Shown here: piece after piece, positions 274 to 9,609 of the stretch
Numbering within the stretch: the first letter of the stretch is position 1
Layout of the letters: every line of letters begins with the position of its first letter
Assembly (NCBI GenBank): GCA_014084085.1
Contig: NPFB01000042.1
Location: forward strand, 187,963 to 198,954
Length of the DNA: 10,992 nt
Direction of reading: 5' to 3'
Source: Hondaea fermentalgiana
Lineage: Eukaryota > Sar > Bigyra > Thraustochytrida > Thraustochytriidae
The notes under the pieces: model-generated
Told to the model about the DNA's origin: nothing
Databases searched by the model: none
The model's input: only the letters and a program-made list of their open reading frames with translations
Made by a program: the position numbers and the translations under genes

Positions 274-3200
274 ATGAGATTTGTTGGCAATGGTGCACTC
301 CAAGAAGCAGTCGAGGCGATCGAAAACGGCGCGACAGAAATCGAGTACGTATATGACAAATTGTGAGACCTCCCAAATTTTAAAAGAGCTGACCACAACT
401 CACGTACGCACGCACGCACGCATGGGATGCGACGGAATGCAACCCTCGGCGCAATTTCATTCATTTTGGCGTCTCATATCATGACGAGCGCAGTCTTAAT
501 TACAACAAATGCGGCGACGAGGGCGCTACGGCGCTGGCGAACGCACTCGCGAACAATGAGTTGCTGCAGACGCTAGAGTAAGTCATTGCGACAAAGTAAA
601 AGTGGGGCCAGAAGCGCAAGAAGCAATAACAGCTGACCACAACTCACGTACGTACGCACGCACGAAATGCGACGAAATGCAACCCTTGGCGCAATTTTGT
701 TCATCTTGACGATCCATGTCATGACGAGCGCAGTCTCAGACTCAACAATATCGGCGCAGAGGGCGCAACGGCGCTGGCGAACGTACTCGCGAACAATGAG
801 TCGCTGCAGACGCTAGTGTAAGTCATCGCGACAAAGTGAAAGTGGGGGTCAGAAGCTCAAGAAGCAAGAAGAGCTGACCGCAACTCACGTACGTACGCAC
901 ACATGGAATGTGACGGAATGCATCCCCTGGCGCAATTCCGTTAATCTTGGCGTCTCATGCTATAAGGAGCGCAGTCTTAAATACAATCACATCGGCTACG
1001 AGGGCGCTACGGCGCTGGCGAACGCACTCGCGAGCAATGAGTCGCTCTATATGATAGAGTAAGTCATTGCGACAAAGTCAAAGTGGGGCCAGAAGCCCAA
1101 GAAGCAAGAAGTGCTGACCACAGCTCACGTACGCACGCACACATGGGATGCAACGGAATGCAACCCTTGGCGCGATTTCGCTCGACTCATTTTATGACGA
1201 GCGAAGTGTTGGCGACAACAGTATTGGCCACGAGGGCGCTACGGCGCTAGCAAACGCACTTGTAAAGAACGTGTCGCTGCAGACGCTACAGTAAGTCATT
1301 GCGACAAAGTGAAAGTGGGGCCAAAAGCCCACGAAGCAACAAGAGCTGACCACAACTCACGTATGCACGCATGCATGGGATGCGACGGAATGCAACCCTT
1401 GGCGCGATTTCGTTCATCTTGGCGTCTCATGTTATGACGAGCGCAGTCTTGAGGAGAACAATATCGGCCCAGAGGGCGCCACGGCGCTGACGAACGCACT
1501 CGCGAACAATGAGTCGCTGCATACGCTAGAGTAAGTCATTGTCACAAAGCGAAAGAGGGGCCAGAAGCCCAAGAAGCAACAAGAACTGACCACAACTCAC
1601 GTACGCACGCACGCATGGGATGCGACGGAATGCAACCCTTGGCGCGATTCCGTTCATCTTGGCGTCTCATGTTATGACGAGCGCAGTCTTGAGGAGAACA
1701 ATATCGGCCCAGAGGGCGCCACGGCGCTGGCAAACGCTCTCGCGAACAATGAGTCGCTGCAGACGCTAAAGTAAGTAATTGCGACAAAGTGAAAGTGGGG
1801 CCAGAAGCCCAAGAATAAGCAACAAGAGCTGACCACAACTCACGTACGCACGCACGGACATATGGGATGCGACGGTGCTGCAACCCTTGGCGCGATTCCG
1901 TTCATCTTGGCGTCCCATGTTGTGACGAGCGCAGTCTTCTCTTCAACAACATCGGCGACGAGGGCGCTACAGCACTGGCGAATGCACTCGCGATCAATGT
2001 GTCGCTGCATACGCTGAAGTAAGTTATTGCGACAAAGTGAAATTGGGGCCAGAAGCCCAAGAAGCAACAAGAGCTGACCACAGCTCACGCACTCACTCAC
2101 GCATGGGATGCGACGGAATGCAACCCTTGGCGCGATTTCGCTCATCTTGGCGACTCATGTTATGACGAGCGAAGTGTTGGCGACAACAGTATCGGCCACG
2201 AGGGCGCTACGGCGCTAGCAAACGCACTCGTAAAGAACGTGTCGCTGCACACGCTAAGGTAAGTCATTGCGACAAAGTGAAAGTGGGGCCAGAAGCCCAA
2301 GAAGCAATAAGAGCTGACCAAATCTAACGCACGCACTCACGCATGGGATGCGTCATCATGCATCCCTTGGCGCGAATTCATTCATCTTGGCGTCTCATGT
2401 TATGACGAGCGCAGTCTTTCGAGCAACAAGATCGGCGACGAGGGCGCTACAGCACTGGCGAACGCACTCGCGAACAATGAGTCGCTGCAGACGCTAAAGT
2501 AAGTCATTGCGACGAAGTGAAAGTGGGGCCAGAAGCCAAAGAGGCAACAAAAGCTGACCACAACTCACGTACGCTTTCGCGCACGCATGGGATGCGACGG
2601 TATGCAAACCTTGGCGCGATTTCGTTCATCTTGGCGATCTATGTTATGACGAGCGCAGTCTTGATGACAACCATATCGGTCACGAGGGCGCGTCGGCGCT
2701 GGCGAACGCACTCGCAAACAATGAGTCGCTGCAGACGCTACTGTAAGTCATTGCGACAATGTCAAAGTGGGGCCAGAAGCCCATGGAGCAACAAGAGCTG
2801 ACCACAACTCACGTACGCACGCACGCATGGAATGCGGCGGGATGCAACCCTTGGTGCGATTTCGTTCATCTTGGCGTCTCATGTTATGACGAGCGAAGTG
2901 TTGGCGACAACAGGATCGGCGCAGAGGGCGCAACGGCGCTAGCAAACGCACTCGCAGAAAACATAACATTGCAAACGCTCGAGTAAGTTCGAATGATGAC
3001 CCACAACACGCATCAAATTCCTTCTTCTGACGTTTCAAAATTACAGCATCGACGACGATTATCCTGCTATCGAAGCCGCTCTCGAATACAATCGAGCTCT
3101 GTACGAACAGAGCCAGACGCCTCTTATGCAGGCGTGCAAGAACGGCGACATCTCGGAGGCAGAAAAGTTGTTCGTCAACGGGACCCGAATCGACGCGCGG

Positions 3201-6191
3201 GACACTCTAGGCCAAACAGCGCTGCTTCACGTTTGCAAAGCCAATGATGAGAAGAATGCACTTATTGTAGCCAAGCTTCTTTTCAAGCACAGCGTAGGTC
3301 TTTCGAGCGAGTCTCTTGGAGTAAGGAAGGCAATTGCGAATGCTTCTTCCAAACATCATATGAATCTGTCCGCCTTCCTTCTTTTCGTACACTCATTGCC
3401 GTTAGCGCAGCTGCAAACCAACGCACTGCGAGAGATGGTTGTCAAGCTTTACGAGCAGGGCGTGCAGACATTGAAAAAGATTCGCAGTCTTACTTCCGCC
3501 CAGCTTGAAAAACTGGGGATAGCAAGCTTGCAAGACCGCCGTGCGTTGCTGCAAGTGTTTGTAGGTCCTGGGCAAACGAGCAAGCTGGAAATTCTTGCCG
3601 CGGAGCTTTCCAATGCCCGGGCAAAGCGCAGCGAGGAAAAGGCTGGTCTCCATCATATAATGCTGCGCGATTTCTTTGCCGAGCAGCTCTCACGCGAAAA
3701 CCCGATTGCCATTGTTGCAGACTTTGACTTGCAGCAAGCAACTGTATCTGAGAAAGAACAAGCGCTCGCCACACTGCAGGAAGCCGTCAAGACCGACCCC
3801 GAAAAGATCCCTGAACGGAATCAGATGCGGCGCGACCTTATCGCGTCTATTCGAGAGACTCTCGCAAAGAGTTCGCAAAACAAGCTTCGTGAGCTAGAAG
3901 ATGATGCAAACGATGTGGCCAACATTTGTCGCAAGCTCTCGCGAGATATCCTGGGCGAACCGGCAAACATCGACGATGCAGCGGAGCTAGTGACCTTTGG
4001 ACAAGTACAGGAGGCAACTCGAACCATGATGGAGGCCATCAAGGCGTGGGAGGCTCGCCATGATACGGCTGCTGCACGCGAGCGCACCACTGCAGCTCTC
4101 AACGCACTAGAAGAGAGCACGAAGTGCCTTGGCATTCAGCCTACATTCTTCATGACGCTGACGTATCCCGAGAGATCCCAGGAGTTGGTATTAAAACTTC
4201 AGGATGTGCATCAAGCATTTGTTGCGGAGCTCAGCGCCTTGGAGAAAGGCGATCACATGGCAGATGCCTTGCTCGACAAAGTGCGACGTGCGTTGGCCTG
4301 CATGTTCTCGTTTTACACTCGTACGATTTCGAGCGTGGTCTCGCGCATAAAGGACCTGGGGCATTTGCTCTCTCACCTTATGTCTGGACTCACTGAGCCA
4401 AACACCGAAGATGCAGAGCTTCTTCTCAAGAGTCTCAGAAACAAGACGAGAAAGTGCAAGCGTCTTGCTTTCGATCTCGACGACGCCCGCGAGGATGCCA
4501 GAGGAGGTGACGAGGAAGCTCAAGCGAGAATCGTTGACCTGGAGCAAGAGCTTGCTCAAATCGGAAGTGTTGACAAACTCGACAGCGAGCTGCGCAAGAA
4601 GCGAGCTCGCTTGTTGCGTCATGCAGAAGAGCACTACCCTGAGCTGCTCCGGGATCAAGAGTGGCTGAAGCGCCTGGGTTTGGGCGACGACGGAGCACCG
4701 CTGGAGCTGTCCAAGCTGGGCTTATGGCGGACGACGGCTCGTCGCGAGCACTTTGTCACTCTCAAGGAGCTTGCGTCCAAGCCTGGCAAGTCTGTGCAAA
4801 AAGTGCGTGGCCCCGATGGCCGCGATCTCGTGCTCAAGGCCTTTCATCTCGCCAGCGAGGCATGGAGCAGTCGATTTTACCATCAAGTTACGGCGCTTGC
4901 CCAGATTCAATCGGCCTACATTGTCCAGATTCAGGGCGCCTTCATGCAGGCTGCACGTGAGGGCTGCATTCTGATGCCGTTTTATCCGGGTGGCGACCTC
5001 GCCACGTGGATTCGCGATCATTCGCACGCAGACTTGGCGACGCGTCTGCGCATCGCTATCGGTCTTCTGAGCGGGCTGCACGATCTGCATTCGCGAGGCT
5101 TCGTGCACTGCGATGTCAAGCCAGAAAATGTCTTTCTCGCAAAGGGTCTGTCGCCGGTGCTGGGCGACTTTGATGGCGTGCAGACGCACAATGTGACCAT
5201 GACGCAGCCAATGCAGGCCACCATCAAGTACATGGCGCCAGAACTCCGCAACGGAAATATCGACAAGGTCGAGCCTGCCGTGGACATGTTCTCTGTGGGC
5301 GTGGTGCTCGCGGAGCTCTTTGACGGTTCAGAGGTGTCGGACGCAATTCAAGCACTCGTTTCGTCTCTCCAGTCTGCAGATCCAACACAGCGGCCCACTG
5401 CACTTGAGGCCTTGCGTCACGAAGCCCTTCAGGTTGAGCTTGTGAAAGAGGCCTCATGTGCCATTTGTCTCGACGTTTACCCGGTTAGTGAGGGCGTATC
5501 TTGCGCTGACGGCCACTTCACGTGCAAAGAGTGTCTGAGCAGGGCGGTACGCGCTGCCACCGATTCTCAGTCGCATGTCAAGGTACGGCGGGATGGAAGC
5601 ATGTGCTGTGTCGCGCCCGACTGTGAACTCCTTGTTTCCGGTCGAGCCATTGCATCCGCGGTTCCAGACGAGGACTTTACAGCTCTGCTCGACATTGTGC
5701 GCGCGCACTTTGAGCGAGACGCTGCAGCCGAACAAGAGCGTCAGCTTCGTGACCGCGTTGACGCAGCGCTCCGCGAACATAGGCTGGACCGGACGACGCA
5801 GAATCACATTCGCGCCATTCAAGATGAGGTCCTCGCTATGTCGTGTCCGCGCTGCTCGACAGTCTTTGCTGACTTTGATGGCTGCTGTGCTCTCAAATGT
5901 GGCGCCTGCTCGTGCTACTTCTGTGCATGGTGTCTGCAGGATACAGGCAATGACGCAGACGCTTGTCGTGAGCACGTTGCAACATGCGCGTCAAAGCCTG
6001 CTGGCGAAGAAGACCCGTTCTTTAGCGATTTTGCTGTTGTAAAGCAAGCTTGGGCTCGGCTTCGTGCACAGCGTCTTTGTCGCTACATGGCGGAAAAGAT
6101 TGAAGACGCAGGCATACGTGCCCACGTCCAGCAGAGACTGCGCCCTCTCCTCACGCCGGATATTGTCGGCGACAATTTTAGGTTCGAATAA
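274..6191 (+). CDS. LRR-ankyrin-SAM-like-kinase-RING/RBR-like receptor protein, 13 exons, 1,379 aa (reconstructed)
   Basis: Predicted intracellular receptor that joins ligand sensing to phosphorylation and ubiquitin transfer. Exons: 274-344, 494-577, 734-817, 975-1058, 1207-1290, 1447-1530, 1687-1770, 1935-2018, 2175-2258, 2415-2498, 2659-2742, 2899-2982, 3047-6191. Every intron is phase 2, and the joined frame has no internal stop. The ATG at 274 has A at -3 and an in-frame TAA 30 nt upstream (241). The gene ends TAA TAG. Domains: LRR N-cap 1-23; eleven 28-aa ribonuclease-inhibitor-type LRRs about 24-332; C-cap to about 350; two ankyrin-like repeats about 354-420 (TPLMQACKNGD, GQTALLHVCKAND); SAM-like segment about 458-505; helical region with a coiled coil about 790-870; kinase about 898-1128; RING 1136-1191; second Cys-rich module 1265-1312; helical tail. 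No signal peptide or membrane segment is seen. Splicing is inferred from sequence; an additional upstream non-coding exon is possible. I do not recognise a named family with this full architecture. Confidence 0.82.
345..2982 (+). repeat. Tandem array of about 240-bp intron-plus-LRR-exon units (11 copies)
   Basis: Each unit is an intron, usually 156 nt (range 148-164), followed by an 84-nt exon. The exons encode one LRR with consensus LxxLxLxxNxIGxEG followed by ATALANALANNES. Introns are as alike as exons: most begin GTAAGTCATTGCGACAAAG, carry AGCTGACCACAACTCACG and an ACGC run in the middle, and end GACGAGCGCAG. Introns: 345-493, 578-733, 818-974, 1059-1206, 1291-1446, 1531-1686, 1771-1934, 2019-2174, 2259-2414, 2499-2658, 2743-2898. 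Exons 6 and 7 are near-identical (both LEENNIGPEG), suggesting recent duplication. Exons 5, 9 and 12 form a subtype (VGDN start) with a GCGAAG acceptor in place of GCGCAG. The exon boundaries cut each LRR at the same place, inside the strand motif. Confidence 0.9.
2983..3046 (+). other. Last intron, unrelated to the LRR-array introns
   Basis: A 64-nt phase-2 intron with a GTAAGT donor, a CTGAC branch-point-like motif at 3027-3031 in a pyrimidine-rich context, and a TTACAG acceptor. Apart from the donor it shares no sequence with the eleven array introns. It separates the LRR array from the single large exon carrying all effector domains, and joins GA+C (Asp) at residue 332. It looks like an ordinary short intron and marks the 3' limit of the repeat expansion. 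Confidence 0.8.
4740..5440 (+). other. Protein kinase domain (divergent) within the receptor gene
   Basis: Visible motifs: VLK with the ATP-binding lysine at residue 929; HCDVKPEN (1019-1026) with catalytic Asp1021, Lys1023 and Asn1026; DFDG (1039-1042) in place of DFG; APE (1062-1064); and the helix-F Asp in AVDMFSVG (Asp1078). The glycine loop is poorly conserved. The expected helix-C Glu appears to be Gln (SRFYHQV). The C-lobe ends around DPTQRPTALEAL. Known of the family: Lys, HxD Asp, Asn and the Asp of DFG are the core catalytic residues, and all four are present, so activity is possible. The HCD, DFD and Glu-to-Gln changes make weak or atypical activity equally possible. Confidence 0.85.
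5457..5987 (+). other. RING plus second cysteine-rich (Rcat/IBR-like) module, probable RBR-type E3 ligase
   Basis: First zinc module: C1136-x2-C1139, C1151, H1155, C1158-x2-C1161, then C1186-x4-C1191 in the context CCVAPDC, a pattern typical of RBR RING1. Second module: C1265-P-x-C1268, DGC (C1278), C1283-x2-C1286, C1291-x2-C1294, then C1305, H1308, C1312. In RBR ligases the Cys in the GC motif of RING2 (Rcat) accepts ubiquitin; C1278 is the candidate here. The 73 residues between the modules are charged and helical and lack the cysteines of a standard central IBR. It could therefore be RING1 plus Rcat without an IBR, or RING plus IBR without Rcat. Confidence 0.7.
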
Positions 6192-8075: not shown

Positions 8076-8410
8076 TTGGCAAGCAATTACAAACTCACCA
8101 ACCTCGTCAAGAATGGCGACCTCGCCGGCGTGCAGCGCGCCGAACCCGCCCTGCTCAACGCGGCGGTGACGACGTGGGGGGGCACTCTTCACAAAGACTC
8201 CGGGGGCCAGCCCGCCATCGCGCAGTGGCTCATCTAACGCGACGCAAAGCTTGACCTGCAGCACCACGAGGGAGGGACCGCGCTCATGTGGGCGTGCCGC
8301 CACGACCAGACCGACACGGCCTGGTTGCTCATTGAGCGCGGCTGGCTCACAAATTTGAGTCGTCGAACAGCGCAAGATGGCCTTTTCAGCTCACGGGCCT
8401 CCATGAACCG

Positions 8411-8441
8411 CAGCAGCAGCAGCAGCAGCCGCAGCAGCAGC
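8411..8441. repeat. CAG/AGC trinucleotide tract
   Basis: Interrupted (CAG)n, about ten units with one CCG. Read in the frame that continues into the RING-like part it encodes poly-Gln; in the ankyrin frame it encodes poly-Ser. It lies inside the broken relative, in sequence with no counterpart in the receptor gene. Confidence 0.8.
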
Positions 8442-8616
8442 TCGCAAACACACTCGCGTTCTGGATCACCAAACCTCATTGTGGCTCACTCGCGTCGCCG
8501 GCACCCCGGCCGGAAACACATCTTCGCGCCTTTGCGCTCATGGTCTTCGTTGAATGTTGGCTCAATCAGTCTCCGCACCGCTCCGCGCGTCAAGGCGCTA
8601 CGGCAAGGCTTACCCC

Positions 8617-8642
8617 GAGCGCGCGCCCGCCCGGGCGCGCTC
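8617..8642. repeat. GC-rich inverted repeat at the junction of the broken gene
   Basis: Perfect 8-bp arms GAGCGCGC and GCGCGCTC flank a 10-base GC centre. Homology to the receptor gene's RING region resumes four bases later (8646), so the palindrome sits at the apparent breakpoint where kinase and RING N-terminal sequence are missing. Confidence 0.65.
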
Positions 8643-9438
8643 AAGCTCAGTCGCACGTCAAGGTGCTCCGGGATGGAAGCATGTGCTGTGTCACGCCAGA
8701 CTGCGAACTCCTCATTCCTGGACGCACAGTTAGTTGCAGCCGCGGTTCCAGACGAGGATTTTGAAGTTCTGCTCGATATTTTTCGCACGCATTTTGAGCG
8801 AGACGCCGCAGCCGAGCAAGAGCGTCAGCTTCAGCTCCGGCTTGACGCAGCGCTCCGCGAACACGGGCTGGACCCGACGACGCAGAACCACATTCGCGCC
8901 ATTCAAAATCAGGTCTTGAACGTATCACGGCGGTCTTTGCTGACTTGGTGGCTGCTGTGCTCTTAGATGTGGCGCTTGCTCATGCTACTTTTGTGCATGG
9001 TGTCTGCAGGACACAGGCAATGACGCAGACGCTTGTCATCAGCACGTTGCAACATGCGCGTCAAAGCCTGCTGGCGAAGAAGACTCATTCTTTAGCGATT
9101 CTGCTGTTGTACAGCAATCGTGGGCTCGGCTTCGTGCGCAACGTCTTCGTCACTACATGGCAGAAAATATTGAAGACGCAGGCATACGTGCCCTCGTTCA
9201 GCAGAGACTGCGCCCTCTCCTCACGCCGGATATTGTCGGCGAGAATTTTACTCTTTCCTAAAACATAGATACCAGTTTTCGCTTTGCTTCTTTTGTTCGA
9301 CTTACATATTTTCGTGAGGCCAGAAGCTTCCTGACAACTATTACATAAGAATTCGTGCGCTTGCCCGGCGCCGCCGCGTGGCGCACAGCTTGGCAATGAT
9401 CATAGTTTTTTGGAAAGTGGCCAAATCTGGACTGATAA

Positions 9439-9446: not shown

Positions 9447-9584
9447 ATCAAAACTCTCTGACGTCCCACATTCGATCATACCACGTGGGCAACTCCTCAT
9501 CTCATTCGCACTGAGCAGAAAAGTCACGTAGGGCCGGGTTAGTAGTGTGATAGGGGACTGCACGCGAAGTCCCGGTGTTGAATG

Positions 9585-9609
9585 TTTTTTTTTCCTTTTT
9601 TTTTTCCAG
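9585..9609 (+). other. Polypyrimidine tract followed by CAG (3' splice-site-like)
   Basis: Nine T, two C, ten T, then CCAG. This is a far stronger pyrimidine tract than in any array intron of the receptor gene. It could be an intron acceptor or a simple T-rich tract. No matching donor or downstream coding frame is evident. Confidence 0.3.

Follow-up and report, generated by a model that had tools for sequence, protein, structure and literature searches.

The window, a stretch of 10,992 nucleotides that closes contig C175 on its right-hand side in the thraustochytrid stramenopile Hondaea fermentalgiana, carries a gene that probably encodes a two-part intracellular recognition protein, one of a family diversified by recombination of phase-2 exon units. 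The two predicted parts are a leucine-rich-repeat (LRR) sensor made of interchangeable 84-nt cassettes and a signalling core, which would comprise a protein kinase together with a RING/Rcat-type ubiquitin-ligase module. Both parts would be joined at a single phase-2 intron. The analysis covered one genome (36.0 Mb in 238 contigs).

Scripted splicing of the window gene yielded 13 predicted exons (71 nt, eleven times 84 nt and 3145 nt) and a product of 1379 amino acids. For the coordinates see Table 1. All 12 introns of this model are in phase 2 and end with AG; the donor is GTAAGT in 11 of them and GTACGT in the first. The earlier note on this DNA had claimed eleven consecutive exons of equal length and phase, and the model bears this out, each predicted LRR exon being 84 nt long, in phase 2, open in frame and followed by a GTAAGT donor. 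At the joints the codon is split 2+1, and retention of any of the GTAAGT-type introns would give TAA as the second codon (11/11). The ten introns between LRR exons measure 148–164 nt and have a mean identity of 88%, so that their description as near-identical was slightly generous. From position 384 or so, the first intron is similar to these ten; the last one (64 nt) is unrelated.

Each 84-nt exon of the window encodes one 28-residue LRR of the ribonuclease-inhibitor type. In the PDB the array was most similar to ribonuclease inhibitor itself (1dfj_I, E = 2.1e-40), and the Pfam match was LRR_6 (E = 1.8e-50); repeat length and best similarity both place the protein among the ribonuclease-inhibitor-type LRR proteins. 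A protein search identified the deposited protein of the window gene, P0001, which is titled 'Protein kinase, putative [Hondaea fermentalgiana]'.

Table 1. Predicted features of the window gene (positions within the window).
Feature	Position	Strand	Remarks
Exon 1, LRR-domain cap	274..344	+	71 nt; alternative end 362 per deposited model
LRR exon 1	494..577	+	84 nt
LRR exon 2	734..817	+	84 nt
LRR exon 3	975..1058	+	84 nt
LRR exon 4	1207..1290	+	84 nt; acceptor AAG; inner CAG at +15
LRR exon 5	1447..1530	+	84 nt
LRR exon 6	1687..1770	+	84 nt
LRR exon 7	1935..2018	+	84 nt
LRR exon 8	2175..2258	+	84 nt; acceptor AAG; inner CAG at +15
LRR exon 9	2415..2498	+	84 nt
LRR exon 10	2659..2742	+	84 nt
LRR exon 11	2899..2982	+	84 nt; acceptor AAG; inner CAG at +15
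Sensor/core intron	2983..3046	+	64 nt, phase 2
Core exon: ankyrin-like, SAM-like, helical region, kinase, RING, Rcat-like module, stop	3047..6191	+	
Ankyrin-like stretch	3123..3359	+	Ank_2, E 1e-4, below cut-off; coordinates derived from residues 358-436
SAM-like stretch	3444..3554	+	SAM_2 E 0.1, below cut-off; derived from residues 465-501
Protein kinase domain	4800..5333	+	Pkinase E 1.2e-27; derived from residues 917-1094
RING-like Cys/His module	5454..5552	+	Pfam E 0.03-0.04; derived from residues 1135-1167
Rcat-like Cys module	5844..5938	+	approximate ends

The exon layout recurs throughout the genome. Patterns for the acceptor side and the donor side of the LRR exons were searched separately and paired if a donor followed 40–150 nt downstream on the same strand. 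The acceptor-side pattern had 89 matches compared with 0 for the reversed control, the donor-side pattern 74 compared with 31 for its control. Pairing succeeded for 27 of the 89 acceptor matches and gave 84 nt in 26 cases and 87 nt in one; since any length from 40 to 150 nt was allowed, this rules out chance as the source of the 84-nt exons in the window. Eleven further stretches were read for exon length (C113, C97, C98, C96, C62, C152, C128, C133, C28, C170 and C2). Here, too, 84 nt is the length of most LRR exons, the exceptions being one 87-nt exon each in C113, C97, C170 and C2, and in C96 three of nine repeats have no donor in range.

The pattern matches were grouped into 43 LRR-exon loci, and the next 5.5 kb of that strand, in the downstream direction, were inspected for partners. 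COR and TIR followed together at 12 loci, TIR only at 6, COR only at 2, the kinase core at 4 and the kinase core with TIR at 1. At the remaining 18, including C28 and C133, there was no COR, TIR or kinase core within this range. The whole genome contains 33 COR-A matches (31 over the cut-off) and 73 TIR_2 matches (68 over the cut-off; e.g. C113:78070, C97:122235 and C2:24419). COR and TIR lie in a single open frame in C113 (873 aa), C97 (936 aa), C2 (920 aa) and C170 (878 aa). The junction between LRR and ROC has one possible acceptor, in phase 2, in C170 and in C2, and both CAG acceptors in C113 are in phase 2. For C97, a phase-2 CAG lies within 60 nt over which the frame stays open, and this stretch is read through in the deposited protein. 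Roc-COR proteins from other sources were matched in the protein search as well. A transcriptome entry, P0098, combines LRR_6, Roc and COR-A, and the entry of P0135, a Roc and COR protein, names Aplanochytrium stocchinoi. In deposited ROC-COR-TIR proteins of Hondaea the precomputed domains include, in addition, WD40-type families in P0078 and P0080 and a kinase in P0067.

The combination of ankyrin, kinase and RING/RBR-like domains that the earlier note had pointed out is real, and its kinase is strongly matched; the Pfam matches of the window protein to ankyrin, SAM and RING are weak, and the RING, Rcat and SAM assignments are to be read as predictions from weak sequence matches. The module resembles RBR ubiquitin ligases (RNF216, HOIL-1) in its RING1-like segment (E = 0.0013 against RNF216) and its Rcat-like Cys pattern (Rcat matches not significant). 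Unlike in these ligases, no Cys-rich IBR was seen in the sequence between RING and Rcat. The RING Cys/His positions are retained in all aligned rows except C27, and the GC of Rcat in 17 of 17. Across the cores the catalytic Lys is kept in 19 of 21 rows, the HxD Asp in 19 of 21 and the DFx Asp in 19 of 20, which, with the Pkinase match, places the domain among the eukaryotic-type protein kinases. The glycine of the DFG motif is replaced by D in 19 of 20 rows. C27 lacks most catalytic positions, and both C12 and C27 have R in place of the kinase Lys. Asn replaces the HxD Asp in the core copy at C173:1-1383, although no other copy is closer to the window gene in that part. No ROC-COR domain was found among the 16 Pfam families that matched the window protein up to E 1. 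NLRs possess a NACHT domain; a NACHT/NB-ARC STAND NTPase family was likewise not found in the window protein by Pfam up to E 1, and its membership of the NLRs was rejected for this reason.

The genome contains 18 copies of the last exon, i.e. of the core, two of them very partial and shorter tail fragments left out. Twelve lie no further than 10 kb from the end of their contig, which suggested a subtelomeric site (young arrays of the Tetrahymena type are expected at subtelomeric or pericentromeric sites), but repeats by themselves break assemblies, and a search for TTAGGGx3 gave 0 matches across the whole genome. By profile scan, an 84-nt LRR array precedes the core in five copies (C175, C152, C98, C128 and C62), whereas ankyrin repeats precede it in eight (two in C206, and C139, C193, C12, C224, C217 and C82) and in the distant C27. 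The sensor type of the other four (C139b, C173, C3 and C237) is unassigned. Among the deposited proteins P0003 and P0007 are LRR-type, P0005 and P0006 ANK-type. The C-terminal end of C152 is a TIR domain (E = 5e-13). In the copy at C62:990-3386, LRR exons, the helical region and RING-Rcat are present, and there is no kinase match.

The sensor/core intron is in phase 2 in 5/5 LRR-type and 6/6 ANK-type genes, as checked on selected donor and acceptor stretches of these 11 genes. In C193 and C12, ankyrin and core share one open frame without a junction intron, so the intron was not always the route by which a sensor was joined. In a tree of the cores (18 rows, 7 LRR and 11 ANK) the sensor type must have changed two or more times on starred branches; the root of this tree is unsure because of the long C27 branch. 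The window core is under constraint, with dN/dS values of 0.22–0.25 against five paralogues. The motif TTCTGACGTT, common to the junction introns of both types, was dropped as a sign of common descent, because it resembles the branch-site consensus and similar motifs occur in introns ahead of ROC-COR cores. In protein searches with the kinase core, seven of the matches listed were strong, all named Hondaea; the rest were short and weak and nearly all kinases. Since some 8000 candidates were scored and several of the copies in the Hondaea genome escaped these searches, absence of the core outside Hondaea is unproven.

The window contains a second, degraded and frame-broken member of the family on the same strand (8080-9262). 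It includes an ankyrin repeat fragment (8247-8342) and pieces of a RING-Rcat tail (8639-9252) and is apparently what is left of a copy of the ANK type. The deposited P0001 is spliced into the start of this relative. A complete 5S rRNA gene lies at 9468-9586 (Rfam RF00001, 89 bits).

Exon number and order, which the earlier note had proposed to compare, differ between the paralogous arrays of this genome and are not fixed. In C28 and C133 the first exons are mutually nearest (15/84 differences), and so are the last exons (7 differences). The inner exons have multiplied separately in the two arrays, which supports the claim that units are gained and lost: exons 4, 5 and 7 of C28 all match C133 exon 5 best (4–7 differences), and exons 3, 6 and 7 of C133 differ from each other at only 3–5 positions. 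Units 1 and 2 of C133 differ in 6 of 264 nt. The exon-intron units of the C133 and C28 arrays (L069, L070) have a period of about 264 nt compared with 240 nt in the window, and this kind of array is a recent expansion separate from the window units. Within the window array, exons 4 and 8, as well as exons 5 and 6, differ by 6%.

Exchange is also indicated within the core. Codons 1–450 of the window core are 87–95% identical to C152 (third positions 83–97%), whereas identity drops to 69% in codons 451–525 and to 76% in codons 601–675 (third positions 49% and 53%) and is at most 76% anywhere within codons 451–675. For C173, which is cut by the contig start and covers the later part of the core, identity is 88–97% from codon 601 on (92% in 601–675). 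Either the window gene or C152 is therefore a recombinant of family members, and core segments have been exchanged within the family.

In the window array the exons are less similar to each other than the introns (78% versus 88% identity). Predicted β-strand positions vary more than the introns in four arrays, and replacement differences are concentrated there. The face columns were chosen by the LRR consensus with the per-codon table already in view, which makes the test partly post hoc. In the window array their π is 0.58 compared with 0.12 in introns, and none of 20000 random intron column sets was as high. C28 and C2 also gave 0/20000 each. C133 gave 8/20000, with a face value (0.42) below that of its most variable contiguous intron block (0.515). 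The test covered ten of the eleven window exons and four of seven arrays (C113, C97 and C98 left out). The strand positions were taken from a single-sequence model of P0001 with a pLDDT of about 54–79 in the LRR part. The structure models are poor (mean pLDDT 48.8 for the core with 7 sequences and 45.9 for P0001 alone), and only the LRR part of P0001 was used. In all five cases checked by hand (E56-60, E84-92, E112-120, E140-146 and E168-173) the residue at the exon joint falls within a predicted strand.

These values have to be weighed against neutral unequal crossing over, in which one-repeat exons inherited from an old gene of this layout serve an ordinary binding role, for example as a kinase-substrate scaffold, and do not recognise non-self. 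Near-identical units and recent duplicates are what such a process gives, and C97 and C98 share the identical one-LRR-per-exon layout despite diverged introns. Synonymous sites, too, diverge more than introns (0.42 for the window exons, 494–2898, versus 0.13), which means that the contrast is partly not due to selection on amino acids; homogenised introns or a higher mutation rate in exons may lie behind this excess. The neutral account nevertheless seems unlikely to us, since it explains neither the concentration of replacement differences at predicted strand positions in four arrays nor the TIR domains downstream of many cassette loci.

Three predicted window exons (at 1207, 2175 and 2899) combine an AAG acceptor with an in-frame CAACAG 15 nt inside, and their splicing is less sure because of this rival CAG. 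P0001 begins the 2175 exon at the inner site, skips four of the eleven exons (at 1207, 2415, 2659 and 2899), uses for exon 1 a different in-phase donor, 18 nt downstream of the modelled one, and lacks the ankyrin- and SAM-like part. P0066, the deposited model for C97, holds four of the ten exons found there with identical joints; the other six are absent. If the cassettes served alternative splicing, one gene would yield a variety of LRR isoforms, either through skipped exons or through the inner CAG of the three AAG exons. All eleven exons are indeed frame-neutral, the inner sites retain the frame, and splice variants of this kind are reported for brown-algal ROCO genes (PMC11378527). We regard this reading as rather improbable: the omissions in P0001 and P0066 may simply be prediction errors, and use of the inner site would delete the LxxN part of the repeat. 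Deposited models of such LRR-exon genes can be wrong and should be treated with caution.

The AAG acceptors, the degraded relative adjoining the gene and the LRR arrays of C62, C152 and C128, which stop at contig ends and thereby suggest assembly trouble in such repeats, might also indicate that the window gene is partly dead or misassembled and its array not spliced as modelled. This is very improbable, given that the core stays open over 1047 codons and is constrained, that all eleven exons are open and have consensus donors, and that the layout recurs genome-wide. Somatic recombination of cassettes, suggested for brown algae as a source of receptor variety within a culture, would profit from frame-neutral units of high identity; germ-line exchange accounts for the paralogue patterns, and we give the somatic variant hardly any weight.

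For the preferred reading, a recognition protein diversified by exon-unit recombination, we suggest the following course of events. Unequal crossing over and gene conversion between exon-intron units would add, remove and replace repeats in frame, since both boundaries of a cassette are in phase 2. Whole sensors could be swapped in a similar way, as the sensor/core intron has that phase too, with either LRR or ankyrin placed on a kinase core; LRR cassettes of the same kind stand on ROC-COR-TIR cores elsewhere in the genome. The predicted strand positions vary most, from which we infer that the ligands of the LRR face are varied and probably non-self; the TIR partners, as predicted from sequence, likewise favour recognition of varied non-self molecules. 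Once the array is spliced in vivo, as we presume it is, the LRR arc would bind its ligand with the variable face. Binding would then activate the kinase and/or the RING-Rcat ligase, and the output would be phosphorylation or ubiquitin transfer, in C152 perhaps TIR signalling. The window gene may have an immune role. More tentatively, one may imagine a set of plug-in receptors in Hondaea, a single-celled protist of the sea, in which a phase-2 socket joins at least two sensors (84-nt LRR and ankyrin) to at least two bodies, one being kinase-RING-Rcat, to which TIR may be added, and the other ROC-COR-TIR. That these form an NLR-like intracellular immune system evolving by exon-unit exchange is a possibility about which we are rather doubtful.

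Since thraustochytrids are grown industrially, candidate receptors in a strain that can be cultured would be useful. With Hondaea the layout gains one more protist lineage, its second among the stramenopiles and one with another exon length, which makes repeated origin of the layout testable. The Hondaea genes also present a case in which sensors appear to be swapped between different signalling bodies via one intron phase, beside a large TIR set.

The exon-cassette principle itself is already known from brown algae, ciliates and animals. The novelty implied by the earlier note was too large in this respect, because one-LRR-per-exon phase-2 arrays have been published for Tetrahymena and brown algae and one-LRR exons for human NLRs. 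Brown-algal ROCO genes are reported to have 72-bp phase-2 LRR exons, splice variants and positively selected concave sites (PMC11378527). The LRR-ROCO genes of Ectocarpus and Saccharina are similar to the window gene in coming from stramenopiles and having one LRR per phase-2 exon; exon shuffling and selected sites on the concave face are described for them, and they were proposed as immune receptors. In contrast to them, the window gene has exons of 84 nt with ribonuclease-inhibitor-type repeats, also in phase 2, and a kinase-RING-Rcat core instead of ROC-COR. The earlier comparison with brown algae was apt all the same, as 84-nt cassettes also stand ahead of ROC-COR-TIR genes in Hondaea; unlike in the brown-algal genes, ROC-COR is here often accompanied by TIR.

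In Tetrahymena, arrays of 90-bp phase-2 LRR exons with ectopic recombination and some protein kinase fusions have been reported (PMC6564038, in part). Hondaea shares with them the single exact exon length found genome-wide, the phase-2 introns, variable array size and recent expansion of units. The length is 84 instead of 90, and the portion of that report considered describes no ankyrin exchange and no RING/Rcat or ROC-COR-TIR core. Most NOD and NLRC genes have one 28-residue LRR per exon (PMC6642158, in part), and these vertebrate exons are, like those of the window, frame-neutral with the exon border inside the β-strand (a predicted one in the window); the window protein differs from vertebrate NLRs in having no NACHT match. 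Exon shuffling is reported for NLR genes of fish (PMC4852459, in part). Judged by titles and abstract openings, none of the papers listed on LRR, TIR, ROCO or NLR in thraustochytrids or labyrinthulomycetes, on Hondaea or on exon shuffling of LRR genes describes this layout in thraustochytrids. Within the literature searched, three things are new: the occurrence in a thraustochytrid, 84-nt cassettes placed ahead of ROC-COR-TIR, and the exchange of LRR and ankyrin on a kinase-RING-Rcat core.
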